Assembly: GCF_902364025.1 (NCBI RefSeq)
Contig: NZ_CABJCG010000008.1
Span: 1-64,000 of the forward strand
Source of the DNA: Enterocloster lavalensis
GTDB lineage: Bacteria > Bacillota > Clostridia > Lachnospirales > Lachnospiraceae
Length of the DNA: 64,000 bases
Direction: 5' to 3'
Shown: in pieces, positions 15,249 to 39,089 of the stretch
Position numbering within the stretch: position 1 is the first letter of the stretch
Layout of the letters: every line of letters begins with the position of its first letter
Notes under the pieces: model-generated
Database searches by the model: none
Seen by the model: only the letters and a program-made list of their open reading frames with translations
What the model was told of the DNA's origin: nothing
Program-made: the position numbers and the translations under genes

Positions 15249-15571
15249 TCAACTCTGCTTCTGATTACAGAACAACACGCGGCGGCGCTGAAGACTACGT
15301 GGTCTCTGGCCAGGCAATGGACACCCGTGAATCGATGATGCAGCAGGTCTACCAGACCGGCTTCGCGGTAGTGGATGCACAGCTGTTCCTGGATACCCAT
15401 CCCTGCGATCAGGCCGCTATGGCGTATTATCAGCAGGTAAGTTCCATGTACCAGGATGCGGTCAGCGCTTTCACCGCTCAGTTCGGCCCGCTGGATGCAC
15501 CGGACAGTAACGATACCACATACTGGTCCTGGATCAGTGATCCATGGCCCTGGGAAGGAGGATGCGTCTAA
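15245..15571 (+). CDS. cotJB: Spore coat protein CotJB
   Basis: A 108-aa protein with the CotJB features: MQQVYQTGFAVVDAQLFLDT near residue 33, HPCDQAAMAYY, and a C-terminal Trp-rich DPWPWEGGCV. ATG 15245 is used: GGGAGGTG lies 6 bases upstream and the codon overlaps the cotJA stop. Its own stop overlaps the cotJC start (TAATG), so cotJA, cotJB and cotJC are coupled. Confidence 0.88.
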   Translation: MINSASDYRTTRGGAEDYVVSGQAMDTRESMMQQVYQTGFAVVDAQLFLDTHPCDQAAMAYYQQVSSMYQDAVSAFTAQFGPLDAPDSNDTTYWSWISDPWPWEGGCV

Positions 15572-15684
15572 TGTGGAAGTATGAAAAACGGTTGGAATTT
15601 CCGGTGAATATTAAGGAACCGAATGCGAAGATGGCAATGTTTATTATGAGTCAGTATGGGGGACCGAAAGGGAAATACTTATAG
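15571..15684 (+). pseudogene. cotJC: CotJC, 5' part, interrupted by the 22.9-kb element
   Basis: The reading frame starts MWKYEKRLEFPVNIKEPNAK, the N-terminus expected of CotJC, and is in register up to QYGGP at 15655-15666. It then runs into element sequence (KGKYL) and stops after 37 codons. The missing 173 residues lie at 38568-39089 in the same orientation and frame. Joining at the shared GGGGGACCG gives 205 aa, near the usual size of this manganese-catalase-like coat protein. This is best seen as a reversible interruption, not simple decay. Confidence 0.9.
15658..15666 (+). other. attL core of the cotJC-intervening element
   Basis: GGGGGACCG in the context TATGGGGGACCGAAAGGG. The same 9 bp occur at 38559-38567 in the context TACGGGGGACCGGACGGC. 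Both copies are read as Gly-Gly-Pro in the CotJC frame. A short directly repeated core is what a large serine recombinase leaves. Confidence 0.85.
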
Positions 15685-15695
15685 GGTGAAGGGAT

Positions 15696-15728
15696 GGGCG
15701 GGCTGCCGTTATTGGGGCCCGCCATTTT
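15696..15728 (+). terminator. Terminator just inside the left end of the element
   Basis: GGGCGGGC pairs with GCCCGCC, followed by ATTTTC. It lies 12 bp after the stop of the truncated cotJC, so cotJ transcripts would end here while the element is present. It overlaps the 3' end of the convergent small gene. Confidence 0.55.
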
Positions 15729-15900
15729 CATGTTCTTTTATCAGTTTCGTCCACAACCGCTTAAACCCTTCTGGATCCGGCTGAGGGCTGGCCTCTGATT
15801 TTACCTCCTGCTCCGCTGCCTTGAACTCCTGCAACAGTTGTTCATCCGAAAAGCCATATAAGTGCTGCAGCAACTCTGTTATCTCGTCTTTCTTTTTCAT
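15709..15900 (-). CDS. Small hypothetical protein at the left end of the element
   Basis: A 63-aa acidic, probably helical protein (MKKKDEITELLQHLYGFSDE). GAGGTAG lies upstream of the ATG. No family is recognised. Its position next to attL makes it one of two candidates for a recombination directionality factor, but nothing in its sequence shows this. Confidence 0.55.
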   Translation of the reverse strand: MKKKDEITELLQHLYGFSDEQLLQEFKAAEQEVKSEASPQPDPEGFKRLWTKLIKEHENGGPQ

Positions 15901-16022
15901 TGACCCTACCTCCTCAAACTTAATCTTTATTTATTTGCTCGTTTCAGCAACATTTTAACATAATCTGCGAATACTATAAAGTATGAATTGCCAGAATGAG
16001 CAAAAGCAGAAGGTGACAGCAT

Positions 16023-16277
16023 ATGATCGAGGATACGTCCATAAAAAATGACATCAGTATACGGATTGGAAGTAATATCAAGAAATTAAGAGAAGCCAAA
16101 GGCATGAAGTCTGGGGACCTTGTGCGTCAAGTTCATCTGAAAGGTGCTAATATTACCGCATTCAGTCTATCCAAAATTGAGGCAAACACACAACATATCA
16201 AAGCCAGCCAGCTGAAGGCTATCAAAGAATCGTTGAATTGTTCGTATGAAGAGCTATTCACGAGCGACGAGGAATAA
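16023..16277 (+). CDS. Small XRE-family DNA-binding protein
   Basis: An 84-aa HTH_3-type protein: IGSNIKKLREAKGMKSGDLV (residues 17-36) then SLSKIEANTQHIKASQLKAI. It stands alone, rightward, facing the endolysin gene. It may control the lysis side or act as an excision cofactor; neither is shown. Confidence 0.65.
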   Translation: MIEDTSIKNDISIRIGSNIKKLREAKGMKSGDLVRQVHLKGANITAFSLSKIEANTQHIKASQLKAIKESLNCSYEELFTSDEE

Positions 16278-16299: not shown

Positions 16300-17058
16300 C
16301 TAAATCTGGTCGGCCAGGTCCACCTCCCAGATCTCCTGAGCTCCATTGTCCCGGGTATGCCAGCAGGCCCCCTCCAAAGGACCGTTCAGCGTATTGTCCA
16401 GGAAATACCAGTCGCCGGTACCGTCAGCCGGGTCGCACACGCGGCCATCCCAGCGGTGCCAGCCAGTGCACATATACCCATCCGGATTGAACAGGTACCA
16501 GTGATGGTTGATCACGCACCACTGGTTCGCGGGGTAGCTGCCGTCTGGCCTCCGGTACCAATAACCGATCCCAGTGCGGACCCAGCCCACCGCCGGCGCC
16601 CACGTCCGCATGAACGCCTCCGGGGTGCCGTAGGTCTGGATCAGCTGAGTGGGCGTGCTGCCCCAGTCCGGCAGGTACAGATGGGGCTTGTCCACAATAC
16701 TGGACCAATCTCCACCCCAGGCCAGGCCCAGGGACTTGGCAATGGCCGCGGCGCGTTCGAAGAGACCGGTGTTGTCGTTGTAGCTGTCGTCGCTGGTTTT
16801 GCCGTCGCCGTCCACGTCCATCATCAGAAAAAAGTCAAAGGCGATGCCCCACTGGTGCTGGGAGCGGTAGGATGTTCCCCTGGCATTGGTTACGATCTGA
16901 CCGGGCTTGGTGCGGCCCTGGGCATAGAGTGCTTCCTGCTCTTCTACGGTTCGTAAGGTTTCCGCGATTCCCACGATAATTCCCTGTGCTGCGCAGGCCT
17001 GGATCCATTTGGCAGCCAGCTGCTGCAGGCGGGGATGGCATAACGTAATATCTCTCAT
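16300..17058 (-). CDS. Endolysin: M15 D,D/L,D-peptidase with C-terminal wall-binding repeats
   Basis: A 252-aa protein. The N-terminal VanY/M15_4 peptidase domain (about 1-135) has the zinc and catalytic motifs SQHQWGIAFDF and DKPHL. The C-terminal region (about 155-245) has aromatic wall-binding-like repeats such as GYWYRRPDGSY and HWYLFNPDGYMCTGW. No signal peptide is present, so it needs a holin, encoded 0.45 kb upstream. It should cut peptide cross-links to release particles from the producer. Confidence 0.85.
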   Translation of the reverse strand: MRDITLCHPRLQQLAAKWIQACAAQGIIVGIAETLRTVEEQEALYAQGRTKPGQIVTNARGTSYRSQHQWGIAFDFFLMMDVDGDGKTSDDSYNDNTGLFERAAAIAKSLGLAWGGDWSSIVDKPHLYLPDWGSTPTQLIQTYGTPEAFMRTWAPAVGWVRTGIGYWYRRPDGSYPANQWCVINHHWYLFNPDGYMCTGWHRWDGRVCDPADGTGDWYFLDNTLNGPLEGACWHTRDNGAQEIWEVDLADQI

Positions 17059-17497: not shown

Positions 17498-17728
17498 TCA
17501 GGATACCTTGTCCAGTTCCGGCAGGCCTGCCAGGGACGTCAGAATCGACGCCACGCCGGCCAAAGCTGCCGTACCAATCACCGTTTTCCAATCCACTGCC
17601 GTGATCGTGACCGCGGCTGGCAGCATGGCTACCGCGGTCTGGGCCATTGTCTTGACTGATCTGCGCAGCGCAGCTCTTATCCACAGAACCGTATTCACAT
17701 CTGCCCGAAAAACACAATTTTTAAACAT
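17498..17728 (-). CDS. Holin (r1t-like)
   Basis: A 76-aa protein with a basic N-terminus (WIRAALRRSVKTMAQTAVAM) leading into two hydrophobic segments at about residues 28-45 and 49-66 separated by a short turn with VDWK, resembling r1t-type holins. ATG 17728 is preferred over 17755 because GGAAGGTG lies about 6 bases upstream. It forms the lysis module with the downstream endolysin. Confidence 0.75.
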   Translation of the reverse strand: MFKNCVFRADVNTVLWIRAALRRSVKTMAQTAVAMLPAAVTITAVDWKTVIGTAALAGVASILTSLAGLPELDKVS

Positions 17729-17744
17729 ATGTTCACCTTCCCTT

Positions 17745-18035
17745 CTAATTGTCAATAATGGATTCTAATAGTTCATCTCGAATTTTTTTCATACTTTCTA
17801 TTCCATTTCCTGTAATCTGATGATTGAGTAATGCCGCCAAGCTTTTAGACTGTTGCTTCTGCATCTCTTCCAATGCTAACAGTCTCTTATAGTCCTTATC
17901 TGAAAGTTCCTCCAGCTTTTCCACACGTTTTGTCAAACGAAACGCGGGTTTTATCACCTTAATAACAACCGCCCCGGCTCCTCCAACAATACTCACCGCC
18001 CCACATATGGACAGCACCATCTGCAAATACTCCAA
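17745..18035 (-). CDS. Small membrane-anchored phage-type protein
   Basis: A 96-aa protein with one N-terminal membrane helix (about residues 5-27), then a charged coiled-coil-like region (RVEKLEELSDKDYKRLLALE). Size, topology and place before the holin resemble phage hemolysin XhlA/holin-accessory proteins. The 499 bp upstream (18036-18534) are AT-rich and hold no recognisable gene. Confidence 0.55.
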   Translation of the reverse strand: MEYLQMVLSICGAVSIVGGAGAVVIKVIKPAFRLTKRVEKLEELSDKDYKRLLALEEMQKQQSKSLAALLNHQITGNGIESMKKIRDELLESIIDN

Positions 18036-20187: not shown

Positions 20188-21183
20188 TTATCCAGCTGCA
20201 TACATATCGTATTCATATTTCATTTTTGCGTTTCCATTCTTGGCATAAATCCTGGTTGTCTCTACGCTGGCATGTCCCATCAAATCGCATAAGGTTGGAA
20301 GCGGCATGCCCTTATTCAATGCCCGGGTTGCAAATGTATGGCGGAGAAGGTGCGGAAAAACCCTTTTACCGATCCCCGCCGTTCTTGCAATTCGCTTTAT
20401 AATGTTTTCTAAAGCGTTCTTCTTCAGTCCCTGATGTGGGGCCCGATTGGAAATAATCACCGCACCGTCCCTGCGATCCCCCAGGTATTGCTCCAGATAT
20501 TCCAGCGCGCGTTCAGAAAAGAATACAATCCTCTCCTTCTGTCCCTTCCCCAACACTTTCACACAGCCCGCGGCAAGATCAATATCTTCCACTTTCATGC
20601 CCACAACTTCTGATACACGGCAACCGGTAGCCAAAAACAGCTCCAGCACTGCATTATCGCGAATATTGGCTCCACAGGCAATTCTCATCTTCTCCATTTC
20701 TCTGGGTGTCAACGCTTCTCGGATCTCAGCCACATACTTGATCGGATCCACAGTGGCCATGGGATTCTTCTGTATGTAACCTCGCTCGTGAAGGAATGTG
20801 AAAAAGGAGCTGGCAATGCGGCGCTTGTGATCCTTGGTGCTGGTACTTATCTGCCGAACCTGCTCGTAATAGTTCAGACATTCCACCACGTCCTCCCCTG
20901 TGATATCCTGAACTGGTTTTCCCACATACACCAACAGATCTGTCAAGAAGCGCTGGTACTGGTTAACTGTGCTCGCTGAGTAATTTTCAAATCTCATTTT
21001 TCCCAGGAAAATATCTAGCTCCGGGAAGCATAATATGTTAGTGCTTAATCCTGTTTCTCGTTTTGCCACCTCGTAGTTTCGGAGTACTGCCGAAAGCGCC
21101 CCATCAATAACCTGCAGTGCAGGACGATCCAGTTCATTGGACAGCCTAGCCATCAATTCATCTTTCAGCCTTACTTCATCCAT
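20188..21183 (-). CDS. Tyrosine recombinase, probable fibre-cassette invertase (shufflase)
   Basis: A 331-aa integrase-family protein. The N-terminal SAM-like core-binding domain (about 55-140) has SASTVNQYQRFL. The catalytic domain contains the Arg in ATGCRVSEV, the Lys in GKGQKER, HLLRHTFAT, GHASVETTRIY with the nucleophile Tyr. ATG 21183 has GGGGGTG about 7 bases upstream. It lies inside the cassette array between sites D and E, not at an end of the element, so inversion of the fibre sites is its likely job, while the serine recombinase moves the element. Confidence 0.85.
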   Translation of the reverse strand: MDEVRLKDELMARLSNELDRPALQVIDGALSAVLRNYEVAKRETGLSTNILCFPELDIFLGKMRFENYSASTVNQYQRFLTDLLVYVGKPVQDITGEDVVECLNYYEQVRQISTSTKDHKRRIASSFFTFLHERGYIQKNPMATVDPIKYVAEIREALTPREMEKMRIACGANIRDNAVLELFLATGCRVSEVVGMKVEDIDLAAGCVKVLGKGQKERIVFFSERALEYLEQYLGDRRDGAVIISNRAPHQGLKKNALENIIKRIARTAGIGKRVFPHLLRHTFATRALNKGMPLPTLCDLMGHASVETTRIYAKNGNAKMKYEYDMYAAG

Positions 21184-21260
21184 ACAAAACACCCCCTTTC
21201 CTTATGATTATGGTAACTCTATCATAAGGCAAGAGGCTTGATTTATGCAAATTTCTTACT

Positions 21261-22366: not shown

Positions 22367-22984
22367 TTATACCTCCTTGATTGTCCTTACTTCGTCCCAG
22401 ATCATTGCCCCCAACTGCTTCCATGTGTATGGTTTCAGTTCCTCCCAAGTTGTGTATCGGTATTCAAACCGATAGGCCAGATGCGCCGGTTTGATATCTT
22501 CCAGCATGTTGATAAACGCCTGCATATTGCGGGGAATCCCTTTGATACCGATAAACTGAATTACAAACAGGTGGTTGGGGTTGTCCTCGATCACGTTCAC
22601 TTCGCCTCCGCTAAATGTTGCCGCGGTATCTTCTATCATCCGTTTGGTCGTCGTTCCATGTCCCCGCAGCTTTGCCATCAGAATCTCCCGGCGCTGCTCA
22701 TATGTCAACGACATATTGGTGGCCACCCCCAACATTTGCTCCCACCTAACCAGGCCCCAGGTCGCTGTCTCAATGAAACACTGATCCAACATGTCTCTCA
22801 GTTCATGCTGCAGCAAACCAATCTCCGGCCCTTCGGCCCGATAGATTTCCGCAAGCTCCCGTACTTCCGCCAAAAAAGGCGGTGCGTATCCGGCAAGATC
22901 CACAAAATAGTTCTCCGACTCTGCCGGCACATCCGGCGAGGCTATCTGATACCGCTGACGGCCATAACTCTCTTTGCCATACAA
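22367..22984 (-). CDS. Baseplate/tail protein, YmfQ/XkdU-like (DUF2313)
   Basis: A 205-aa protein with the family pattern RWEQMLGVATNMSLTYEQRR near residue 85 and EILMAKLRGHGTTTKRMIED, then FVIQFIG and a C-terminal AHLAYRFEY. It joins baseplate wedge to fibre in PBSX/Mu-like tails. It lies between two fibre genes with 1-3 bp spacing. Confidence 0.82.
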   Translation of the reverse strand: MYGKESYGRQRYQIASPDVPAESENYFVDLAGYAPPFLAEVRELAEIYRAEGPEIGLLQHELRDMLDQCFIETATWGLVRWEQMLGVATNMSLTYEQRREILMAKLRGHGTTTKRMIEDTAATFSGGEVNVIEDNPNHLFVIQFIGIKGIPRNMQAFINMLEDIKPAHLAYRFEYRYTTWEELKPYTWKQLGAMIWDEVRTIKEV

Positions 22985-22987
22985 CTG

Positions 22988-24277
22988 CTACACCCCCTTC
23001 AGGTCATTCCAGCTGACAGCGCCTTTTTTCAAATAGCTGCTGTCATGATTGTGGTTCTTTGCCGCCGCATCTGTAATACCATACCCTGCCAAAGTGGAGG
23101 GATTCGCACCGGCCGTCACATGGCCCTGTACGTTAACGGTAACGCTTTTATAAGTTCCGGCTGCCACTCCACTGTCCGGATGAGTATAGCCGGTATTCGG
23201 CGGAACCGCCCATGTGCCGTCGCCGCGCAGAAACTGTTCTTGTTTACCGGCAGCCGGCGCGGGGACCAGCCCGCTCGTGCCGGCTGCCGAGGCGGTTGCC
23301 CCCTTTATTTCGCTGTAGGTGGTATTATAATCCGGCCCCCAAACTGCTGTTCCATCCTCCGCCCACCGTAAAATCTGGCCCCCGGATCCGCCTGCGGGAA
23401 TATGTTTCGTTCCAGATGCGGTGGGGTGCACATACCGATTGGCTCCCTCTGCAATCCCGGCCAGCTTATCCAGCATATCCTGCGTCAGATTGCTCAACAC
23501 ATTTTTATTGCTATGATCATGACGTTTGTTATAGGCCTCGTCATAGTTTGCCTTATCCTCTTTGCTTAAAAGTCCGTCCCCGTCCCGGGTCGCTTTCGGG
23601 ATTGCGTTGGCCGAGACTGCGATCCAGCCGGTCCCATTCCAGCGATAGGTATAATCCGTGTCCCTGACATTGACGGTCCAGCCGTCCTTGGGATGCGGGT
23701 ATGTATCGGAGAGGTCTGAATAAGTATTAACCGATGCTTTCCAGTCGGCTTCGGCCAGGAAATCGAAAAACTTGTTGTCAATCTCACTCCTGCTATACTT
23801 ATCGTCCCAGATCGGCCTATTATCATTAATGGTATTTTGAATCGCTGTTTCGGCCTGAGCCGCTCTGAGACACTCTGCGTCAACCGCCTCGCTGTTTGCC
23901 TGCTCGGCGGCTTTCGCCCGTGTCTCCTCCGCGTTCACCGCCTCCTGGGTGCAGCGGACCGCTTCCTGCAGCCGGTTGATATCGTCCGCCTCCACCGTGT
24001 CTCCATCCGTTTCATAGCTAATGTAAACCACGGGTTCTTCCGCATATATCTTTACCACCCGCTTCCAGGGCGCCAGGCTTGGGGTGGATAAGGTGTATGT
24101 TTCAAGACGTTTCCCAGTCAGCTTCGGTCCCGTATAGACCGCAAATGCAGCCGCGTTAATATTATCATGCTGCAACTCCCCCTCGTACACGCCATCCGTG
24201 GGATGAACCACTTCTTCGACGACGTATACATTGCCGTCAACCTTATTCAGCTTCTCATAAAAGGTGCTTACATTCAT
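22988..24277 (-). CDS. Tail fibre / baseplate appendage protein
   Basis: A 429-aa protein. The N-terminal domain (about 1-110) may attach to the baseplate. Residues 110-160 form an Ala/Glu-rich coiled coil (QEAVNAEETRAKAAEQANSE). The C-terminal part has phage fibre repeats with GYTHPDSG and GYGITDAAAKNHNHDSSY. It overlaps the baseplate J gene by 4 bp. It has no cassette array of its own. Confidence 0.75.
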   Translation of the reverse strand: MNVSTFYEKLNKVDGNVYVVEEVVHPTDGVYEGELQHDNINAAAFAVYTGPKLTGKRLETYTLSTPSLAPWKRVVKIYAEEPVVYISYETDGDTVEADDINRLQEAVRCTQEAVNAEETRAKAAEQANSEAVDAECLRAAQAETAIQNTINDNRPIWDDKYSRSEIDNKFFDFLAEADWKASVNTYSDLSDTYPHPKDGWTVNVRDTDYTYRWNGTGWIAVSANAIPKATRDGDGLLSKEDKANYDEAYNKRHDHSNKNVLSNLTQDMLDKLAGIAEGANRYVHPTASGTKHIPAGGSGGQILRWAEDGTAVWGPDYNTTYSEIKGATASAAGTSGLVPAPAAGKQEQFLRGDGTWAVPPNTGYTHPDSGVAAGTYKSVTVNVQGHVTAGANPSTLAGYGITDAAAKNHNHDSSYLKKGAVSWNDLKGV

Positions 24278-25308
24278 CGTGCCACCTCCAGCGTAATTGC
24301 CCCTGGTACCGCCAGCTCCTCGTCATTCAGCGACACATTTCCGGCGTCGCCGTTCAACAGCAGGTCAAAGTAGTCCTCCACGCCATCGATCCCCAGCAGC
24401 AGATTTCCGATTTTAGCCAGGCTCACATAGGACAGGTCCAGCGCTTCCTTGCGCAGATACCCTGCCATTGCCGCCTGAAATGCGTGCTCGACAGTTCCCA
24501 GATTCGTTCCCGTCCGCACCTTGATTCCGGCGGATACATTGATGGCCTTTTCGGTCACCGACGCCACTGTGACGTCCGCGCCCACAGGGCGGAGTTCCTC
24601 GATATGCTCCTGCACCTCCTGTACCAGTCCGGCTCCGGCGGCAGACATACCTGCGTCTGAGATCACTACTTTTACAGTCCCGGGTCCATTGGCCAATGGG
24701 AATACCCGCGCCGCTCCAACTCCGTCGCATTCCATGGCCCAGTTATAATAATCATACCGGTTACCGCTGGTGGAAGGCTTCTGCACCTTTGTCAGGTATC
24801 GGTCCAATAAAGACTCTGTCGACTCCTCATCGCTCCCACTGTCGATTATCTCCGTAAGCTCCGCTTTTGTAAGCCCCGGAATATAATCAACCGGCACCAT
24901 CGCTCCCAGCTCTCTGTTTTCCAACGCGCCCGCAGTCTCACATTCCATCCGGTATGTCCGATCCCCTATGCGCTCAACGGCGACATAGTTCAGGGTTCCC
25001 AGCGAAAAACGCGCTCCCAGTTCGATCTCCATATTAAATTCCCCTTTTAACACAGCCTTTGCAGCCGGATGCGGGGTGATATTCCATTCCGAGCAGCGCC
25101 TGATCAGATATTCCCGAACCGCCGTCTCCGCAAACATCTGGTCCAACGTCCACCCAAGTTCAATGTATGCATTCTGCAATTCCACCGCGGCCGGCGCAAG
25201 CGCCGTATAAACGGGGGAGCTCTGCCTGGTATCCAATTCCGGGCTGTTTTCTTTGACGTTTCGGAGCATTCGCTCAAGAATTATTTCATACGTGGTGTCC
25301 TCATACAT
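24274..25308 (-). CDS. Baseplate J-like protein (XkdT)
   Basis: A 344-aa baseplate wedge protein of the gpJ family. The N-terminal segment has LDQMFAETAVREYLIRRCSEW and the middle has TKAELTEIIDSGSDEESTESLLDRY-like wedge sequence. The C-terminus is a beta-rich domain. The start overlaps the previous stop (TAATG). Contractile tails such as PBSX carry it after XkdS. Confidence 0.87.
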   Translation of the reverse strand: MYEDTTYEIILERMLRNVKENSPELDTRQSSPVYTALAPAAVELQNAYIELGWTLDQMFAETAVREYLIRRCSEWNITPHPAAKAVLKGEFNMEIELGARFSLGTLNYVAVERIGDRTYRMECETAGALENRELGAMVPVDYIPGLTKAELTEIIDSGSDEESTESLLDRYLTKVQKPSTSGNRYDYYNWAMECDGVGAARVFPLANGPGTVKVVISDAGMSAAGAGLVQEVQEHIEELRPVGADVTVASVTEKAINVSAGIKVRTGTNLGTVEHAFQAAMAGYLRKEALDLSYVSLAKIGNLLLGIDGVEDYFDLLLNGDAGNVSLNDEELAVPGAITLEVAR

Positions 25309-25703
25309 TACACATCAACCTCCTTGGATGCCTCTACGTCCCCATACTGCGTGTGCGCGGTAAACGTAACACTGAGCTTATGCCCCACTATGGTGAACGA
25401 AAACGCATCAACGCTCTGTATCCTGTCATCCTGCAGCAATGCTTCCCGAATGCGTTTTTTAATTTTTGACTTGGCTAACTTCATGGGTTTTCCCAGCAGA
25501 CTGGTCAACTCCACACCGTAGTTCCAGTTATAAATCAGCCAGTCAAACCGTTCGGTATTGAGAATGCAGTATATCGCCTGCTGCACCGCCTCCCTTCCGT
25601 CCACACAGCCCTGCAGTCTTCCGTCTTTTAAACGGTAGGTCCGGGACGGCTGCTTGCGGATGACAAATTCCCGTCTCAAAATATTGCCTGTTTTCGGCAG
25701 CAT
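25308..25703 (-). CDS. Baseplate protein, DUF2634 (XkdS-like)
   Basis: A 131-aa protein with YRLKDGRLQGCVDGREAVQQ near residue 22 and YNWNYGVELTSLLGKPM near 58, as in DUF2634/gp25-like baseplate proteins that start sheath polymerisation. It lies in PBSX order between XkdR and XkdT. Confidence 0.85.
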   Translation of the reverse strand: MLPKTGNILRREFVIRKQPSRTYRLKDGRLQGCVDGREAVQQAIYCILNTERFDWLIYNWNYGVELTSLLGKPMKLAKSKIKKRIREALLQDDRIQSVDAFSFTIVGHKLSVTFTAHTQYGDVEASKEVDV

Positions 25704-25721
25704 GTTCGCCTCGCCTCCTTT

Positions 25722-26036
25722 CTACCAGCGTTCCAGCACCAGATATTGCTGGCCGCCCTTTTTTTGCAATAACAACACGCGTTCCCCCGGCTTCAAACCA
25801 TTTTTAACCGTTACGTCCACCTCTCCCAGCTGCGGGATTACCATCGTTTCCGTGTGGTCGGTCAAACGCCTGGGCACCAGTACCTGGCTGCCCTTTACGG
25901 TCGTTTTCTGGTCAATCTGTACCGCTGCCGGAGAAACGCTTACCACTGTGCCGGGAATGAGATCACAGGGGTCCCCTGACTCCACGGCCTGCAGCATAAT
26001 CCGTTTCATATTTTCAATCCATTGGGCGTCAGGCAT
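25722..26036 (-). CDS. Baseplate protein, DUF2577 (XkdR-like)
   Basis: A 104-aa beta-rich protein with ending GERVLLLQKKGGQQYLVLERW and an OB-fold-like middle (VVSVSPAAVQIDQK), matching DUF2577. It is likely a small spike or hub-associated protein. The start overlaps the XkdQ stop by 8 bp. Confidence 0.8.
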   Translation of the reverse strand: MPDAQWIENMKRIMLQAVESGDPCDLIPGTVVSVSPAAVQIDQKTTVKGSQVLVPRRLTDHTETMVIPQLGEVDVTVKNGLKPGERVLLLQKKGGQQYLVLERW

Positions 26037-30131: not shown

Positions 30132-30175
30132 AGTCTCACTTCCTTTCGCCAAAAGAACGTTCTCCATATCAAATC

Positions 30176-30217
30176 TCACCGCGCTATCAGAATTTGTTCT
30201 TAACCATAGCGCGGTGA
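30176..30217 (-). other. Strong intercistronic hairpin before the tape-measure gene
   Basis: TCACCGCGCTAT pairs perfectly with ATAGCGCGGTGA around an 18-nt loop. No T-run follows. It lies between the end of the frameshifted chaperone frame (30228) and the tape-measure start, and may lower tape-measure output compared with tube and sheath. Confidence 0.65.
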
Positions 30218-30227
30218 GGAACTCTTT

Positions 30228-30419
30228 TTATCTTTTTCGTTTACTTCTTGCCTTCTGTGCCTCTTTTTTATCCTTCTCTAACTTCAGCTCTACCGCGGCG
30301 ATCACAACCGCTTTTTCGTAGCGGTCCAGGCTCAGAAATTCATGAGGCCATCTATGAAGCTTATGGAGGCAATAGTAAGCGATATTCGCTTCCACATCGC
30401 CTCCATCAATCAGTTTTTT
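30228..30419 (-). CDS. Frameshift extension of the tail-assembly chaperone (T part of GT)
   Basis: After the slippery AAAAAAC the -1 frame stays open for 61 codons (LIDGGDVEANIAYYCLHKLH then HEFLSLDRYEKAVVIAAVEL) to a TAA at 30228. It has no start or ribosome site of its own. The sequence resembles the second half of PBSX-like chaperones, so it is made only as a fusion of about 203 aa. Confidence 0.8.
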   Translation of the reverse strand, partial: KKLIDGGDVEANIAYYCLHKLHRWPHEFLSLDRYEKAVVIAAVELKLEKDKKEAQKARSKRKR

Positions 30420-30838
30420 GCTTCGCTAACCAGCTCGTCCATGGGAACGTCAAAACCATTGACTGCCTGCACCTTTTCCAGGTAATTCGCGTACTCGCCC
30501 GCAGTCAGCATAGCTTTCAAAAGTGAGTCCGCCCCCATCACTCCATAGGAGTCCTGGAGCTCTTTATCATTCAAATTCGGGAAAACCGTACATTTGGCTG
30601 CAAGCCTGCCGAGATACAGATTATAATCCGTCTCCTGGGTATACTGCCCCCTCTTTCCTGTAACCGGCACTCTTTTGGTACAATCTTTTCTCAGAACTTC
30701 GTCATCTTTGGACGTGATCGCCTGAATTTCCCATAACATCGGATTCTTGCTCTTGTCCCGGAAACGCTTTGAAGCAATAAAGGTCTCATTCTCCGCTTTT
30801 AATGCATTCTGTGCTAAAAAACAGCTCAAATCTCCCAT
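30410..30838 (-). CDS. Tail-assembly chaperone (XkdN-like, G part of GT)
   Basis: A 142-aa protein ending MDELVSEAKN-stop. XkdN-like features: NPMLWEIQAITSKDDEVLRK near residue 33 and TDYNLYLGRLAAKCTVFPNL near 70. It lies between tube (XkdM) and tape measure, the fixed place for this chaperone. Its last sense codons are GCA AAA AAC, a -1 slippery site. Confidence 0.85.
   Translation of the reverse strand: MGDLSCFLAQNALKAENETFIASKRFRDKSKNPMLWEIQAITSKDDEVLRKDCTKRVPVTGKRGQYTQETDYNLYLGRLAAKCTVFPNLNDKELQDSYGVMGADSLLKAMLTAGEYANYLEKVQAVNGFDVPMDELVSEAKN
30413..30419 (-). other. -1 ribosomal frameshift site AAAAAAC
   Basis: Read in the chaperone frame as gcA AAA AAC UGA, exactly X XXY YYZ followed by a stop. 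It leads to a 61-codon continuation. The GC-rich sequence downstream could form a stimulatory stem, not resolved here. Confidence 0.8.
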
Positions 30839-30858
30839 CGTCTCTCACTCTCCCTCTC

Positions 30859-31335
30859 TTACAGCATTCCGCTCATAGTTCCAAACATCTCCGGGATCTC
30901 AAAATCCTCGAAGGTGAAGTCCGCATCCTCGTCCAGGTACTCCGCGTCCGCGTCGAACTTGGCCAGAATTCCGCCGTCCAGATTGCAGTCCTTCAGGATC
31001 ACAGTCTGCCGTCCGACGCTGCTGGTCGGGTCCTCGTTGGTAATCTGAATGTCAAAATACACATCCTCACCGGTCTCCTTGTACCGGTACAGCAGCTGGC
31101 GGAAAATACTGGTGTTATAGTGGAATGTGGCCGACCCGCTGCCCTTCCAGCCGGTGGTTTTGTTTCCCTTGCCGGTCTTTCCCAGAATCGGGATCTCAGA
31201 CTTGGTTTTCTCGATGCTGGCCTCCAGGTTGATGGCCTGCATAAAATTATAGCGGTTTCCTTCAATGGTGACAAAACACTCTGCCAGAGACGCGCTGATG
31301 GCGTCCTTTGCGTTCATAATCGGATTATTCAGCAT
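30859..31335 (-). CDS. Tail tube protein (XkdM-like)
   Basis: A 158-aa protein with the family core NRYNFMQAINLEASIEKTKS and GWKGSGSATFHYNTS near residue 65. ATG 31335 is chosen because GGGAGGAG lies 9 bases upstream. It forms the inner tube contacted by the sheath encoded just upstream. Confidence 0.87.
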   Translation of the reverse strand: MLNNPIMNAKDAISASLAECFVTIEGNRYNFMQAINLEASIEKTKSEIPILGKTGKGNKTTGWKGSGSATFHYNTSIFRQLLYRYKETGEDVYFDIQITNEDPTSSVGRQTVILKDCNLDGGILAKFDADAEYLDEDADFTFEDFEIPEMFGTMSGML

Positions 31336-31351
31336 ATTTCTCACTCCTCCC

Positions 31352-32680
31352 TTACTGTACAACTACGGTCATGTAAAGCTGTGCCATGGCGTTAACCGGC
31401 GTCACCGGACAGCTGGCGACGATGGACTTTTTGCCTTCGCCCTTGGCGATTACGATATCATCCGCCTTGAAATTCTCAATGGCGCGGAGCTTCTCCAGCT
31501 CCCGGTAATACGTCACCACGTCATTCCAAAGGCTCACGCGCCCCGCCTCGTCATTGGGAATTTTCCCCAGATACTTATTTCCGAACAGCGCGGCGATATC
31601 ATTACCGATCTGATCCAGCACGCGCATGGTCTGGTTGCTGGAAAAGTCTCTGCCTTTTTCCTCGGTATACGTTACCAGCGTATTAATATCTTCCAGAACG
31701 CGGGTTTCATTTCCTACCCTGTGTAAGATAAATTTTCCGGCCTTAACGGCATCCTCCAGCGCTTTCTGGGTATAGGCGGTATCCGCAGCGTACTCTCCGT
31801 CATAAGTCTTGTTGGTATTGGAGGCATTAACCGCGCATCCGGCAATCGCGCCGGTAACCCAATATACCAACGCGCAGGCCTCCGTGCTCAGCTGCGCCCC
31901 GTTTTCCTCCGCCGCCGCGCTGCCCGCGGTAACATTCTCCAGGGAAACAATCCCCTCGCAATCCGCCGCGCTGCGGAACAGGACCGTCTGGAATTTAATT
32001 CCCATCTCATCACGCATACTCTTAGTAAAGTCGGCAAACAGCGTTTTAACTTCCTCGTCATCCGAGACCAGCCCCAGCGCGTGGAAGGAATAGCTCTGGA
32101 TCTGATCCAGGAATTTCTGGTAATCCGCCTTCGCCGGAGTCCCGTTGGTTCCTCCGGTAAAGGGAACACCCGCGGTCGCCTGCAATGCCGTTTCCCGTTT
32201 AAACGCCACATAGGCATTATCCTTTAATTCCGCAGCCGCAGATACCTCCTGAACGTCCATCTCATTTCCATCCAGGCAAGTTTTTACGGTATAACGCTCC
32301 CCCTCCTGCTCGATCACCAGGCGCAGGTCGTTGCCCCGCACTCCTGCGTAACGGGCCGCCGCGTAATCGCAGGCCGCCTGTTTTCCGCCGCCGTTTACCC
32401 GGTAGCCGTATAAGGTCCGCGCATTCTTAAACAGATCGCGGATTCCCTTTACCTTCTCGTGGTTGTACTCATAACCGAACAGCTCCGAGCAGCGCTCCGC
32501 CAGGTCCGAGGCCTCCAGGGTAAATACCTCGCCGGCCGTACCCCAGTCCATCTCCAGGGGCATCGCCACATAACCCCGCTCCGACAGAACCACTCCAGCC
32601 CGAGCCGCAGACACAAAATTGATATACGCTCCGGGCAAAATCTTATTTCTCTCCTTAAAACTTCCGCCTCCAAGTGCCAT
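31352..32680 (-). CDS. Contractile tail sheath protein (XkdK-like)
   Basis: A 442-aa protein. N-terminus GSFKERNKILPGAYINFVSA, middle ADYQKFLDQIQSYSFHALGL, C-terminal sheath domain with VGNETRVLEDINTLVTYT and ending QLYMTVVVQ. A sheath gene shows that the particle is contractile (myovirus/R-type), not siphovirus-like. Confidence 0.92.
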   Translation of the reverse strand: MALGGGSFKERNKILPGAYINFVSAARAGVVLSERGYVAMPLEMDWGTAGEVFTLEASDLAERCSELFGYEYNHEKVKGIRDLFKNARTLYGYRVNGGGKQAACDYAAARYAGVRGNDLRLVIEQEGERYTVKTCLDGNEMDVQEVSAAAELKDNAYVAFKRETALQATAGVPFTGGTNGTPAKADYQKFLDQIQSYSFHALGLVSDDEEVKTLFADFTKSMRDEMGIKFQTVLFRSAADCEGIVSLENVTAGSAAAEENGAQLSTEACALVYWVTGAIAGCAVNASNTNKTYDGEYAADTAYTQKALEDAVKAGKFILHRVGNETRVLEDINTLVTYTEEKGRDFSSNQTMRVLDQIGNDIAALFGNKYLGKIPNDEAGRVSLWNDVVTYYRELEKLRAIENFKADDIVIAKGEGKKSIVASCPVTPVNAMAQLYMTVVVQ

Positions 32681-33366: not shown

Positions 33367-33783
33367 TTAAACGATTTTGCATTTTTTTAAATATTTGTCC
33401 CGAACGTAAAGTCTGGGGTAGTCCGGGCTGCCGGCATATCCGGTTTTCAGCGCAATTTTGGGCCAGCTCATCCCATCCACATAGAACATCTTAAAAATGC
33501 ATCGGGCTTGTCCGTCGTCAATATTCTGAATCCATTTCTCCACCGCCTGAACCTGGTCTTTCTTCTGTTCCAATATCCTTTGACGGCACTCGTATAACGG
33601 CCAGTCAAATCCCACAATGCGCTGCGGCCTGCCATATCCCGTGCGGTAATCGAGAATTGTGCTGCTCCCCAGACCGGAATCAGTGGTCCGCATTTCTTCC
33701 AGTTCCATCTCCAGAATCGGAATTTCCCGCTTAAGCTTCTTATAATTATCCAAAAGTTTTTTCGTCATTTTCACATGCTCCAT
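33367..33783 (-). CDS. ArpU/sigma-like phage late transcription regulator
   Basis: A 138-aa protein. Residues 1-90 are a coiled coil (LLDNYKKLKREIPILEMELE). The C-terminal 45 residues form a sigma region-4-like HTH: IFKMFYVDGMSWPKIALKTG then RLYVRDKYLKKC. GGAGG lies 8 bases upstream of the ATG. Its place between the control region and the tail operon fits a late-gene activator. Confidence 0.72.
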   Translation of the reverse strand: MEHVKMTKKLLDNYKKLKREIPILEMELEEMRTTDSGLGSSTILDYRTGYGRPQRIVGFDWPLYECRQRILEQKKDQVQAVEKWIQNIDDGQARCIFKMFYVDGMSWPKIALKTGYAGSPDYPRLYVRDKYLKKCKIV

Positions 33784-33918: not shown

Positions 33919-34062
33919 TCAGGCGGTCTTTCTTTTGTAACCCGCAGCTGTCATAATTCTGTCCTGGACCTGTAGGGCAATTTCCTGCTTCTTATTCTCC
34001 GGGAGCTCCTCAAACCGGAAAACCTCGCCGGATACCTCAATCGTATTTACTATTTCAGGCAA
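33919..34062 (-). CDS. Small phage-type protein, TTG start
   Basis: A 47-codon frame: TIEVSGEVFRFEELPENKKQ then IMTAAGYKRKTA. The composition is clearly protein-like and resembles small proteins of clostridial prophages. An in-frame stop upstream leaves TTG 34062 as the only usual start, with a weak, distant GAGGGG. It is the first candidate gene after the LexA-box promoter. Confidence 0.45.
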   Translation of the reverse strand: MPEIVNTIEVSGEVFRFEELPENKKQEIALQVQDRIMTAAGYKRKTA

Positions 34063-34149
34063 TTTGATAGAACCATCCCCTCTCTCTAAATTTTATGAGA
34101 CAGGGATTGTACATATTGCCTGTATTCCCACGTTCCTCCTTTTTACAGG

Positions 34150-34420: not shown

Positions 34421-34441
34421 ACAGTTATGGAGGTAGACCGT

Positions 34442-34795
34442 ATGGGGAATTTTAAGAATGTTTTTAAATCGCTGCGAACTGAGAATGGTTACACCCAGGA
34501 TGGGCTTGCAGATATGCTGGGCATATCCCGGAGCGCTGTCAGTATGTACGAAAATGGCAACCGGGAGCCGGATCTTAAAACCCTGGAAGCCATAGCGGAT
34601 CTGTTTAAAGTTGATATGGATTATCTCCTGGGGCGAAGCTCGGCAACCACCGCCGCGGCAGCCACCCCGGAACGCTATATCGCCCCAAACTGTGATGATC
34701 TGATCACCGTGTACACCAGAAGCAGAAAAAACCTCTCACAGGAAGAAAAAATGAGACTTGCCCGTATCATATTATCAGATGATGACGAGGAGTAA
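34442..34795 (+). CDS. XRE-family repressor of the element (ImmR-like)
   Basis: A 117-aa protein. N-terminal HTH (about 5-60): YTQDGLADMLGISRSAVSMY then ENGNREPDLKTLEAIA. ATG 34442 is preferred over 34427 because GGAGG lies 8 bases before it. It is coupled to the downstream ImmA-type peptidase gene, the arrangement used in ICEBs1 and related prophages for protease-relieved repression. Confidence 0.8.
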   Translation: MGNFKNVFKSLRTENGYTQDGLADMLGISRSAVSMYENGNREPDLKTLEAIADLFKVDMDYLLGRSSATTAAAATPERYIAPNCDDLITVYTRSRKNLSQEEKMRLARIILSDDDEE

Positions 34796-34799
34796 TAAA

Positions 34800-35483
34800 A
34801 TGGATTTTGAGCAGTTGTATGAAATCATTTTCAAGATCTACACAGACTGCAACGTGACGGAATTTCCCATTGATTGTTTTGAAGTGGTCCGCAGATGCGG
34901 CTATCGAATCAAACGTTATTCCGAACTCACCCCAAAGAAAAAAGAGGCGTGTATGCGCCTGAGCCCCGATGCCTGCATCGTGAAGGACACGCTGTATTAT
35001 CAGGATCAGAATATTCCGGAACGAACACGTTTCTCCGTTATGCACGAATTGGGACACGTTTTCCTCCAGACACCCGTTGAGGAAACAGCGGATACCTTCT
35101 CCAGCCATATCCTGGCCCCCCGGATCATGATACACAAGAACGGCTGCCAAAATGCAGAACAGATCCACGAGACCTTTGGCCTGTCCTACACCGCTTCGAA
35201 CCGCGCCCTGTCGGATTACCGCCAATGGTTCACCAGAATCAGCCGCCGTTCCCCCAGAAGGCCGCTGGCAATCGAGCAGAAATTGGAGTCCAGGTTCCGC
35301 CCGCTGCCGGAAGAGCCGGCGTCCCGTCCCTCCCGGCGCAGACAGGCGAAAAAGCGTCTCACCAAACGCCAGCGCGAGATGGACGAGCGGGCATCGTTTT
35401 TCCAGGAACAACGGTTGATCTATGGGGAGGACTATGTGTTCCACCTGCTGGAAGAGCAGTGGTTATGCGGAAATGCACGGTGA
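34800..35483 (+). CDS. ImmA/IrrE-family metallopeptidase (anti-repressor)
   Basis: A 227-aa protein. The zinc motif is HELGH in RFSVMHELGHVFLQ near residue 82, with a further Glu and HILAPR downstream. The C-terminus is basic and low-complexity (RRQAKKRLTKRQREMDERAS). ATG 34800 is used: GAGGAG lies 8 bases upstream and it follows the repressor stop by 4 bp. By analogy with ICEBs1 ImmA it should cleave the repressor and induce the element; here SOS may act in parallel. Confidence 0.82.
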   Translation: MDFEQLYEIIFKIYTDCNVTEFPIDCFEVVRRCGYRIKRYSELTPKKKEACMRLSPDACIVKDTLYYQDQNIPERTRFSVMHELGHVFLQTPVEETADTFSSHILAPRIMIHKNGCQNAEQIHETFGLSYTASNRALSDYRQWFTRISRRSPRRPLAIEQKLESRFRPLPEEPASRPSRRRQAKKRLTKRQREMDERASFFQEQRLIYGEDYVFHLLEEQWLCGNAR

Positions 35484-35596: not shown

Positions 35597-36124
35597 ATGA
35601 AAAAAGCAAGGTTATTCATCGCAACCGCCATCGCTGCAACCGCCATCAGCTTCACCGCCTTCGCCGGCGAATGGAAGCAGGACACCACCGGCTGGTGGTA
35701 TGAGAATGACGACGGAAGCTTTACCACAAGCGCGTGGCAGGTCATTGGCGGCAAATCCTATCTGTTCGACTCCAACGGATATATGCGTACCGGATGGATC
35801 CAGACCACCAGCGGAAATTGGTACTATCTCAATCCGTCAGGAGAAATCCGCTACGAGGATCTGGACGAAAACGGTGTGATCTACCATTTTGACTCCAAGG
35901 GAATCTGCACCAACCCCGGTGAGAATGGGGGCGAGAGCGGGAACGGGCTTAATTTCAACAGCGATTACCAGTCCATCCTCGACATGGAACGCCTGAGGGC
36001 CGAAAAAAGGCTTATGGATCAGGACAATAACAGCCAGAATTACGAGGAATCCATTGTCTATGAACATGACGTTGCCCCCACCACTCCGACAAACAGGTAT
36101 GGGCTGTCCGATATGCAGTTTTAA
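35597..36124 (+). CDS. Secreted wall-binding-repeat protein
   Basis: A 175-aa protein. Signal peptide residues 1-23 (MKKARLFIATAIAATAISFT, cleavage after AFA). Choline/wall-binding type repeats follow at about 26-105 (TGWWYENDDGSF, NGYMRTGWIQTTSGNWYYLN). The C-terminus is an acidic charged tail without a known domain. GAGG lies upstream. The repeats resemble those of the endolysin in the same element. Perhaps a surface or immunity-like factor; this is speculation. Confidence 0.7.
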   Translation: MKKARLFIATAIAATAISFTAFAGEWKQDTTGWWYENDDGSFTTSAWQVIGGKSYLFDSNGYMRTGWIQTTSGNWYYLNPSGEIRYEDLDENGVIYHFDSKGICTNPGENGGESGNGLNFNSDYQSILDMERLRAEKRLMDQDNNSQNYEESIVYEHDVAPTTPTNRYGLSDMQF

Positions 36125-36129
36125 ATAGC

Positions 36130-36359: not shown

Positions 36360-36388
36360 GCATTTTTTACGCGCATCCCCCGTACAAT
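36360..36388 (+). promoter_or_regulatory. SigE-like promoter candidate before the serine recombinase
   Basis: GCATTTT, 14-bp spacer, CGTACAAT resembles SigE (KMATATT, N14, CATACAMT) at 6 of 7 and 7 of 8 positions. The start codon is only 19 bp past the -10, so the leader would be very short. Treat as weak. Confidence 0.3.
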
Positions 36389-36406: not shown

Positions 36407-37858
36407 ATGCCCCAAGTAACCATCGGCGCCGCCTACATCCGCGTCAGCACCGACGACCAGACAGAGCTGTCCCCGGACGCCCAGCTGCGCGTAATTTTAG
36501 AGCGCTCCAAGTCCGACGGCGTCACCATCCCGCCGGAATTCATATTCATCGAGAAAAAAGGCATCAGCGGCCGCAAAGCGGAGAACCGCCCGGAATTTCA
36601 GCGCATGATCGCCATTGCCAAAAGCCAGAAGCCCTCCCCCTTCCGCCGTCTCTATCTGTGGAAATTTTCTCGATTCGCCCGCAACCAGGAGGAGAGCGCG
36701 TTTTACAAAGGAATCCTGCGCAAAAAATGCAGCGTGGAGGTCGTCAGCGTATCCGAGCCCATCATGGAAGGCATGTTTGGCCGCCTGATCGAGATGATCA
36801 TCGAGTGGTTCGACGAATACTATTCCGTCAACCTCTCCGGCGAGGTCCTGCGCGGTATGAAGGAAAAGGCCCTGCGCCAGGGCTACCAGCTGCGCCCCTG
36901 TCTGGGCTACGACGCGGCCGGCGGCGGGAAACCCTACACCATCAACGAATCCGAGTACGCCGTGGCAGAGCGTATTTTCCGGGAGTATTACAACGGCCTG
37001 GATCTCACCGGCGTGGCCCGCAAGCTGAACGGCCTTGGCCTTCGCACCAAGACCGGCAACCGGTTCGACCGCCGTTCCGTGGAACGCATACTGAAAAACC
37101 GCTTCTACCTGGGGGAGGTGATTTGGAACGGAATCACGTTCACCGGCGCCCATGAGACGCGCCCGTCCATCACGTCCATTTTCGAGGCTGTACAGAACCG
37201 GCTGGAATCCGAGTACCGCCCCCTTGGCCGTCGGGAGGTCTCGGCCAACGCTCACTGGCTGTCCGGCCTTCTGCGCTGCAGCGTATGCGGCGGTAACCTG
37301 GGCTACAACCGCTCCAACAATCCCAAACGGCGGCCGGATTTCTTCCAGTGCTGGAAATACGCCAAGGGCGTCCACCCGGAGTCCTGCGCCATCACCGCCC
37401 GCCGGGCCGAGGCCGCGGTGATCGAATCCCTGCGCCAGGTGATCTCCACCGGCCAGGTGGAATACGAATACATTCCCCGCCGGGAAGAAACCGCTCACGA
37501 CGAGGAATCCGATCTGCGCGATGCCTTGGCCCGCCTGTCTATGAAGGAAACCCGCGTGCGGGACGCATACGAAAATGGCATCGACACCCTGGAAGAATAC
37601 CGGGAGAACCGGCGCCGTCTGAACGCCGAGCGGGATGAACTCACCCAGGCCCTGGACCTGCTCCATAAGGCCGCCGCGCCCCCGGAAAATATCCCGGGCA
37701 GCCAGGAAATCGTTCGCCGGATCCAGACCGTCTACGACCTCTTAATCAGCCCGGACGTGGACTTCGCCATCAAGGGAAACGCCCTGCGCAGCGTGGTGAA
37801 ATACATCGAGTTTGACCGCAGAAACGACCGCATTTCCATGCGATACTACATATCATAA
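36407..37858 (+). CDS. Large serine recombinase, element integrase/excisionase
   Basis: A 483-aa protein. The resolvase domain (about 1-150) has the nucleophile Ser in YIRVSTDDQTELSPDAQL and RLYLWKFSRFARNQEESA. The recombinase domain (about 165-270) has GYQLRPCLGYDAAGGG and RILKNRFYLGEV. A zinc ribbon (CSVCGGNLGY, later FQC and SC) and a coiled coil follow. ATG 36407 has AGGAG upstream. It lies 0.7 kb from attR, as expected for an enzyme that joins the two GGGGGACCG cores, and is of the same class as SpoIVCA of skin. Confidence 0.9.
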   Translation: MPQVTIGAAYIRVSTDDQTELSPDAQLRVILERSKSDGVTIPPEFIFIEKKGISGRKAENRPEFQRMIAIAKSQKPSPFRRLYLWKFSRFARNQEESAFYKGILRKKCSVEVVSVSEPIMEGMFGRLIEMIIEWFDEYYSVNLSGEVLRGMKEKALRQGYQLRPCLGYDAAGGGKPYTINESEYAVAERIFREYYNGLDLTGVARKLNGLGLRTKTGNRFDRRSVERILKNRFYLGEVIWNGITFTGAHETRPSITSIFEAVQNRLESEYRPLGRREVSANAHWLSGLLRCSVCGGNLGYNRSNNPKRRPDFFQCWKYAKGVHPESCAITARRAEAAVIESLRQVISTGQVEYEYIPRREETAHDEESDLRDALARLSMKETRVRDAYENGIDTLEEYRENRRRLNAERDELTQALDLLHKAAAPPENIPGSQEIVRRIQTVYDLLISPDVDFAIKGNALRSVVKYIEFDRRNDRISMRYYIS

Positions 37859-37952
37859 GCTCTTGACATGCAAAAAGAATCTTGTTCTGATGATCATATT
37901 ATGATAAAATTAGGATAAAATAAATGCAATATCATGAAAGGAGCGTTTGAAC

Positions 37953-38213
37953 ATGATCCAAATTCGGCCCGTTTCTGACCTTAGAAATAAGTTCCCGGAG
38001 ATTGAAGCCATTGTAAATGAAGGAAAACCCGTCTATCTGACTAAAAACGGTTATGGTGCAATGGTGGTATTAAGTCTGGAAGAATATGAAAACCTGACGA
38101 ACAGCATCGAAGCGAAGCTTGACGAAGCCGATAAGCAGGCAGCCGCGTCAGGCGAGAGACTTTCCCACGATACGGTTTTCGACCACGCAAGGAGCGCGAT
38201 ACATGGAAAATAA
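37953..38213 (+). CDS. Phd/YefM-family antitoxin
   Basis: An 86-aa protein with MIQIRPVSDLRNKFPEIEAI and KPVYLTKNGYGAMVVLSLEE, the Phd/YefM DNA-binding domain, and a variable C-terminal toxin-binding tail. ATG 37953 has GGAG upstream. It overlaps the toxin gene by 11 bp. It probably stabilises the element. Confidence 0.88.
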   Translation: MIQIRPVSDLRNKFPEIEAIVNEGKPVYLTKNGYGAMVVLSLEEYENLTNSIEAKLDEADKQAAASGERLSHDTVFDHARSAIHGK

Positions 38214-38517
38214 ATCCTATCTGCTTAGGTATCTGCCGCTTTTCGAGCAGGATTTGATCAGCGCTGCAAATTACATTGCAAATGTGTTGAAAAATGAAGA
38301 AGCGGCATTGCGCCTGATTGACGATGTGGAGGCTGCCATACTGGGAAGGCTGAGTAATCCCACCGCCTTTGAGCCATACCGTTCCGCCAAAAAGCGCGAT
38401 TCACTTTATTACCGGATTTATGTCAAAAATTACGTTGTCTATTATGTGGTAATCGGCAATGTTATGGAAGTCCGCCGCCTGATCTACGGGGCAAGGGATA
38501 CGGACAGACACTTATGA
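38203..38517 (+). CDS. RelE/ParE-family toxin
   Basis: A 104-aa protein with the RelE/ParE fold pattern: YLPLFEQDLISAANYIANVL, then RDSLYYRIYVKNYVVYYVV and VRRLIYGARDTDRHL. The start at ATG 38203 lies inside the antitoxin gene. The stop is 42 bp before the attR core, so it is the last gene of the element. Confidence 0.87.
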   Translation: MENKSYLLRYLPLFEQDLISAANYIANVLKNEEAALRLIDDVEAAILGRLSNPTAFEPYRSAKKRDSLYYRIYVKNYVVYYVVIGNVMEVRRLIYGARDTDRHL

Positions 38518-39089
38518 GTTTTCCGTACGGTATTACACATCATGAGTTACTGCCATACGGGGGACCGGACGGCGAAATGGGCGCTTCCATGCGCTATCTC
38601 TCCCAGCGCTACACCATGCCCTACAAGGAGTGCAAAGGCGCTCTCACCGATATTGGAACGGAAGAGCTTGCCCATCTGGAAATCGTCGCCACCATCGTTC
38701 ACCAGCTCACCCGCAATCTGACGGCCGAGCAGTTGGTGGAACAGGGCTTCGGCCCCTATTACATTGACCACGGGACCGGCATCTGGCCCCAGGCCGCCGG
38801 AGGAATCCCCTTCAATGCCTGCGAATTCCAGTCCAAGGGCGACGTGATTACGGATTTACATGAGGATATGGCCGCGGAGCAGAAGGCGCGTACAACCTAC
38901 GACAATATCCTTCGCGTAGTCAAAGACTATGACGTATGCGAACCCATCAAATTCCTGCGGGAACGCGAAGTGGTGCACTACCAGCGGTTCGGCGAACTTC
39001 TGCGGATCACCCAGGACCACCTGGACAGCCGCAACTTCTACGCCTTTAACCCGGAATTCGATATCCGGCAGGACACCTGCAACCAGTAA
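38514..39089 (+). pseudogene. cotJC: CotJC, 3' part, interrupted by the element
   Basis: The frame opens at 38514 inside element sequence, but native CotJC codons begin at the core (YGGPDGEMGASMRYLSQRYT from 38556). It then has the manganese-catalase-like metal-site helices (LTDIGTEELAHLEIV, LHEDMAAEQKARTTYD, REREVVHYQRFGE) to the stop. The upstream 32 codons lie at 15571-15666. Restored by excision it makes 205 aa. As assembled it might be translated from the local ATG as a 191-aa product with a foreign N-terminus. Confidence 0.9.
38559..38567 (+). other. attR core of the cotJC-intervening element
   Basis: GGGGGACCG in the context TACGGGGGACCGGACGGC, direct repeat of 15658-15666 and in the same codon phase (ggg gga ccg). 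Confidence 0.85.

Follow-up and report, generated by a model that had tools for sequence, protein, structure and literature searches.

Excision of the SPbeta phage reportedly restores the spore-envelope gene spsM. We describe here a comparable element, which splits the spore-coat gene cotJC in a stretch of 64,000 nucleotides from Enterocloster lavalensis (NCBI RefSeq assembly GCF_902364025.1, contig NZ_CABJCG010000008.1, positions 1 to 64,000 of the forward strand; hereafter the window). In both cases, removal of phage DNA would make a spore-envelope gene whole again, but cotJC is the single target of many element lineages, from remnants of ~3 kb to elements of ~87 kb. The cotJC element is probably a phage-derived intervening element that was inserted by recombination between the attachment (att) sites attP and attB at the codon for Gly31, and that is excised in the mother cell during sporulation to restore cotJC. 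By analogy, it would work like skin and SPbeta.

According to published excerpts, programmed gene restoration in sporulation is known from around six genes, and those of PMC10747680 and PMC5595907 name sigK, spsM, spoVFB, gerE and yabG. As described in the same excerpts, skin in sigK (B. subtilis, C. difficile) is like the cotJC element in being phage-derived, in interrupting a mother-cell gene, in having its own serine recombinase and in allowing an exact in-frame restoration. The target of skin is a sigma factor, whereas cotJC encodes a coat Mn-catalase. Its four crossover codons are used by as many types of recombinase, its elements can be stacked, and the one in the window has a tailocin-like cargo. 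The yin element in yabG (C. botulinum) also concerns a clostridial coat-related gene, a serine recombinase and a putative recombination directionality factor, and its restored gene was sequenced; yin is termed unique in the excerpts of PMC10747680, whereas cotJC elements are widespread. In gerE (B. cereus) and spoVFB, the elements gin and vfbin likewise split a host sporulation gene that is restored by a serine recombinase, though gin lacks phage genes and encodes three such recombinases (PMC5595907, excerpts). The same excerpts give the recombinase as constitutive in SPbeta and in C. difficile skin. Diverse serine integrases that converge on one conserved gene site, as at cotJC, appear in the excerpts of PMC10083194, but the targets there are a Mg chelatase/protease-like gene and a prolyl isomerase gene. 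The word cotJC is absent from the text available of PMC10747680 and of PMC10083194, the latter also being devoid of 'catalase' and 'spore', and no paper on an interrupted cotJC was found among the matches listed in the open-licence PMC literature (preprints being outside its scope).

The sequence-only reading that preceded this work had proposed that a 22.9-kb element interrupts cotJC in frame, with the same sequence in the same codon phase at both junctions and a large serine recombinase 0.7 kb from the right one. All of this was confirmed to the base. The features concerned are the following.

14796-15248, plus strand: cotJA (open reading frame and gene order; name from operon context)
15245-15571, plus strand: cotJB (open reading frame and gene order; name from operon context)
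15571-15662, plus strand: cotJC 5' piece, ending at the crossover GG of Gly31 (Pfam match, attP dyad)
15661-15662, plus strand: left crossover dinucleotide (attL) within GGGGGACCG at 15658-15666 (attP dyad centre)
36407-37858, plus strand: large serine recombinase (integrase), with Resolvase, Recombinase and zinc ribbon domains (Pfam) and a match to phrog_95, integrase (PHROGs)
38562-38563, plus strand: right crossover dinucleotide (attR) within GGGGGACCG at 38559-38567 (attP dyad centre)
38562-39089, plus strand: cotJC 3' piece, beginning at the crossover and ending with the stop codon (Pfam match, attP dyad)

The first codons of cotJC (start at 15571) are followed by foreign DNA, and the remainder of the gene is found from 38559 to its stop at 39089, the gene being split at Gly31 by 22,901 bp. 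Joining of the flanks gave a CotJC of 205 codons without a stop. Both pieces matched Pfam Mn_catalase, the 5' piece slightly under the cut-off (24.6 of 27 bits), and the joined product matched solved manganese catalases (e.g. 6j42 and 1jku). CotJA and CotJB had no family match in NCBIfam. GGGGGACCG stands in equal codon phase at the two junctions; since this 9-mer is not rare (2 found in the window versus 1.3 expected by chance), the proof lies in its position at both broken ends of cotJC. The recombinase gene ends 0.70 kb from the right junction. The locus thus comprises a split sporulation gene with a frame-restoring join and a site-specific recombinase of its own, as does skin. A Cys/Gly-rich open reading frame of 125 aa (14231-14608, minus strand), divergent from cotJA, resembles a coat or exosporium protein.

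To locate the crossover point, attP was rebuilt from attL and attR for 15 elements inserted at this site (site A; the window and 14 relatives), and 26 centre positions were tried. The best dyad centre was identical in all 15 junction pairs and fell between the two G of Gly31, indicating that the crossover dinucleotide is GG, bases 1 and 2 of the codon; in controls with shuffled arms and a conserved core, this centre won in 13% of the trials. The observed dyad scores were 14-22 of 30. A 2-bp crossover centred in imperfect dyad att sites, as in large serine integrases, is therefore predicted from the sequence, and since the dinucleotide belongs to the Gly codon, integration and excision would be codon-exact. 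The frame was kept in 15/15 joins, 12 of which gave 202-231 codons while three (G001, G171 and G259) ran into a second element. Gly-Gly-Pro reads GGNGGNCCN in every case. The sequence-only reading had attached importance to the presence of the 9-bp core in relatives. This does not matter: in G327 and G056 the identity at the centre is only 2 bp (GG), plus further 2-bp identities in adjacent codons, and a 9-bp identity at the junctions is not essential.

Further evidence came from relatives of the recombinase. In named genome contigs, the search returned 11 loci, and a cotJC piece was found beside the recombinase in all of them; 48 of 397 genomes (family of G001) matched the recombinase with an E value of 1e-60 or lower. 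In a second search, 22 of the 30 loci returned had a cotJC piece inside the short flank, 6 of these being already among the 11. The eight others were L046 and L055, in which a cotJC 3' piece was found elsewhere on the same contig, and L061, L063, L067, L069, L070 and L071. Split cotJC genes were then counted by eye, mostly in draft genomes, in which the pieces often lie on separate contigs and one-sided cases are weaker. The gene was split in 27 of the 79 family genomes over the cut-off (130 searched; both sides of the break in 22, one side in 5) and in 29 of the 89 class genomes with a match (138 searched; 21 and 8, respectively). Omitted from these counts were G001, the centre of both samples; G027, G047 and G103 (family) and G467, G506, G509 and G439 (class), which were ambiguous, decayed or adjacent frameshifts; and G472 (class), whose match was below the cut-off. 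Site-A elements ranged from ~3 kb (G156) to ~87 kb (G056). Four of them, smaller than 4 kb (G156, G259, G290 and G327), had an open recombinase and a small protein (see below), and little else in common.

cotJC was also found to be broken at Glu65, Gly62 and Glu136, by three other recombinase types. At site B, 7 of the 9 junction pairs pointed to the GA of Glu65, G041 to the GG of Gly62 (site B'), and G129 was ambiguous. At site C, 4/4 testable pairs of 5 pointed to the GA of Glu136, though narrowly for G008 (10 versus 9 of 19); the pair of G106 was left out, having no anchor. Among 15 proteins, recombinase identity was 15-29% between types A, B, B' and C and 28-67% within a type. Insertions were stacked on single contigs in G001, G171, G259 and G535, and some genomes, among them that of Lacrimispora celerecrescens 152B, had cotJC in three pieces. 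A near-identical strain (L166) aligned with the window at 98.9% up to position 38665 and then departed from cotJC, marking a further site:

38664-38665, plus strand: empty site B (GA of Glu65), occupied in L166 (whose alignment ends at 38665)

Glu65 and Glu136 of CotJC are presumably metal ligands (numbering of the Lactobacillus enzyme). Residues 65, 68, 136 and 169 were E, H, E and H in 27/27 cotJC 3' pieces, while E35 was preset by the search pattern. All these crossover dinucleotides are bases 1 and 2 of highly conserved Gly or Glu codons, and are thereby beyond the reach of synonymous drift. Two site-B cotJC pieces were also seen 157 kb apart on one contig of G438 (C1, 2541492-2698788), and L272, L291 and L293 contained middle cotJC pieces (residues 63/64-136), sites B and C both seeming to be occupied.

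Some recombinase relatives (L061, L063, L067, L069 and L071) adjoined the halves of another gene, encoding a protein of ~421 aa with a C-terminal PG_binding_1 domain, which we take to resemble SleC. This second target gene was matched in 15 of 75 viral loci (C-terminal half in 10, N-terminal half in 5), several of which were near-identical and one of which (L259) was a partial match, off position. Viral loci adjoining the split SleC-like gene include L203, L218, L219 and L261. In the recombinase tree, 12 recombinases of the SleC-like gene fell in a clade of 13, together with one cotJC member (L235).

Two of the viral scans also yielded 59 loci without a cotJC or SleC-like match. From all three scans, 22 loci that had no such match and that extended far enough past the recombinase were examined for attP. 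Eight of them (L174, L180, L187, L201, L249, L250, L253 and L256) had an intact GGNGGNCC dyad site near the recombinase, 0/200 shuffles being as good, and 13 had no intact attP. A borderline site in L246, matched by 3% of the shuffles, was not counted. L174 has phage genes on both sides of its attP site and matched the two ends of the G001 element at 92% and 96%. In a FastTree tree (topology alone), where the attP of a free form served to label it as cotJC, free and integrated forms were neighbours in the pairs L174/L001, L180/L050 and L201/L058. Megablast of window 36407-39089 against phage records gave no match, and the best protein match in these records was 36% identical.

The regions upstream of the recombinases and of cotJA were scored against the consensus sequences that we take to be those of sigma-E and sigma-K, and a small protein was sought by profile search. 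The features in the window were as follows.

36360-36388, plus strand: sigma-E-like promoter, GCATTTT-N14-CGTACAAT, 18 nt before the recombinase start (11.5 of 14, p 0.010)
14733-14759, plus strand: sigma-K-like promoter, AC-N16-CATAAACTA, 36 nt before cotJA (8/8 consensus positions; without shuffle control)
33919-34062, minus strand: small protein of 47 aa, candidate recombination directionality factor (TTG start assumed; profile search)

For 38 recombinase upstream regions, the mean best sigma-E-like score was 10.21 of 14, compared with 9.12 in shuffles (standard deviation of the mean 0.12; 0/200 shuffled sets reached 10.21) and 9.13 on the opposite strand. A score of at least 11 was reached by 14/38 regions, and by 2/38 on the opposite strand. 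The sigma-K-like motif before cotJA was a full match in three of four regions and matched 7 of 8 positions in the other, no shuffles being made. Of 20 site-A elements or parts of elements, 16 encoded a protein of ~50 aa (the matches in G171, G290 and G039 being weak), which the profile search found in 0/9 site-B/C elements and in no reversed sequence. It had no Pfam match and only weak PHROG matches, and we propose it as a candidate directionality factor. A CATACAAT motif upstream of it scored well as a promoter but was rejected, the stretch reading as conserved coding sequence of an upstream frame. Just before the small protein, the window (~34063-34110, minus strand), L001, L002, L009 and L010 share the short, conserved end of a coding sequence (like VQPVxHTIYQ); it reads as an overlapping gene or a micro-peptide.

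The cargo of the element comprises the following features.

16023-16277, plus strand: Cro/C1-type helix-turn-helix (HTH) regulator (Pfam)
16300-17058, minus strand: endolysin (PHROGs)
17498-17755, minus strand: holin (PHROGs)
20188-21192, minus strand: Xer-like tyrosine recombinase among tail-fibre cassettes (Pfam Phage_integrase; inverted repeats)
22367-26997, minus strand: tail and baseplate genes (PHROGs)
27004-32680, minus strand: LysM/endolysin-like protein, tape measure, XkdN-like, tube and sheath genes (PHROGs)
33367-33783, minus strand: transcription regulator (phrog_36)
34427-34795, plus strand: HTH regulator (Pfam)
34758-35483, plus strand: IrrE-like (Peptidase_M78) protein (Pfam)
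37953-38517, plus strand: toxin-antitoxin pair (Phd/YefM, ParE-like; Pfam)

A PHROGs scan of 20 element proteins identified sheath, tube, tape, baseplate, tail, holin, endolysin, regulator and integrase proteins. No head or packaging protein was the best match of any of the 20 (several short open reading frames were outside the scan), and one tail protein had a secondary match to 'virion structural'. The cargo therefore looks like a head-less contractile tail module, similar to a tailocin, with genes for sheath, tube, tape, baseplate and lysis. Between 18535 and 22365, tail-fibre end cassettes on alternating strands, with inverted repeats and about six copies of a ~20-bp repeat, surround the Xer-like recombinase and likely form a shufflon switching tail specificity. 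The toxin-antitoxin pair, between the serine recombinase and the right junction, lies in a stretch common to L166. Directly upstream of the serine recombinase, the window (35597-36124) and L174 (5285-5785), which have different elements, each encode a secreted protein, with similar tryptophan/glycine-rich repeats in both.

We propose that the phage-derived element entered cotJC when its serine integrase recombined attP with an attB whose centre is the Gly31 codon. As long as cells grow vegetatively, it would stay in place with its contractile-tail (tailocin-like) module. In the mother cell of a sporulating cell, sigma-E would turn on the recombinase, which with the small directionality factor would excise the element; the complete cotJABC operon would then be transcribed by sigma-K for the coat, and the forespore would retain the element. 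We infer excision during sporulation from the sequence, and likewise its timing, the cell in which it occurs, a requirement for the small protein and a use for the tails. The sequence-only reading had called the element developmentally reversible; the architecture and the analogy with skin and SPbeta (relatives, free attP forms, promoter-like motifs) speak for the reversibility, while the developmental part is among what we infer.

Several observations weigh against this proposal. A single dyad score of at least 14 was reached by 26% of the shuffles, so that the strong evidence is the agreement of the centres. As to the sigma-E-like motif, 24/38 recombinase upstream regions scored below 11 of 14, 6 of the 38 recombinases scored were not beside cotJC, and, because of a T run, a 16-bp spacer was almost as good as one of 14 bp (a score of at least 11 in 12 versus 14 regions). 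For the sigma-K-like match, the comparison covered only four regions, without shuffles. Nine of the 16 small-protein matches were seeds of the profile, and this search did not find the protein in 4/20 site-A elements (G282, G168, G253 and L006). In many of the genomes with a split cotJC, another cotJ operon is intact, its cotJC usually beside cotJB or cotJA. The sequence-only reading had counted an intact second copy in the genome of the window, if it made the split gene dispensable, as a refutation; a second operon weakens the necessity of the reversal but does not refute the reversal itself. Finally, in one close pair, the synonymous divergence (dS) of the recombinase (1.53) exceeded that of the cotJ genes (0.40-0.74). 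This points to gain and loss of elements, in which case a conserved cotJC is no proof that the gene is used while split. We therefore did not take purifying selection as such a proof, although the median ratio of nonsynonymous to synonymous divergence (dN/dS) of the cotJC 3' pieces was 0.09 in 51 unsaturated of 351 pairs.

The intact second operons, the free phage contigs with attP and the greater divergence of the elements than of host genes in that pair would also fit an ordinary temperate phage or tailocin island using a dispensable cotJC as attB, with excision on phage induction and cotJC off in lysogens. We consider this unlikely, since the recombinases as a set carry sigma-E-like motifs and the small remnant elements retain the recombinase and the small protein (weakly matched in G290). 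Moreover, some split genomes show no intact cotJC copy in draft assemblies (e.g. G025, G028, G039, G113, G122, G168, G282 and G290), and there was no frame decay among 27 distinct 3' pieces: 24 were open over at least 160 codons, and the three others (L021, L028 and L029) stopped at residue 136, where a site-C element starts. An earlier count of open 3' pieces (30/31 loci) was set aside as circular, its pattern having demanded GGPDGE and 150 open codons.

That the element is dead and trapped, and cotJC a permanent pseudogene in the window strain, would agree with the lack of head genes among the scanned proteins. This is very improbable given the open recombinase, the matched att sites and a cotJC 3' piece open to its stop; that L166 has another element in this cotJC, at Glu65, also argues against it, in terms of mobility rather than use. 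An assembly artefact, which pieces on different contigs in many relatives might suggest, we regard as refuted by pieces on one contig in several others (contigs of 3.5 to 6.9 Mb in G156, G277, G327 and G056) and by the same codon being hit in unrelated genomes.

More broadly, we lean towards the idea that Clostridia have in cotJC a general docking gene, used by at least four integrase types, and that about one-third of the species with the gene rebuild it at each sporulation by one or more events of mother-cell DNA splicing, the elements behaving as DNA-level introns; the integrase clade would also have moved to the SleC-like cortex gene. The attB logic, which places the crossover at bases 1 and 2 of a conserved codon, is simple and lends itself to testing, and the att pairs might be of use in genome engineering. 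The finding also suggests a way for a phage or tailocin to ride in a coat gene at no cost to the spore. If about one-third of the cotJC-bearing Clostridia have the gene split, by four integrase types and at times into three pieces, the rebuilding of genes in development may be common among spore-formers of gut and soil, and rebuilt genes may hide in annotations as broken genes.

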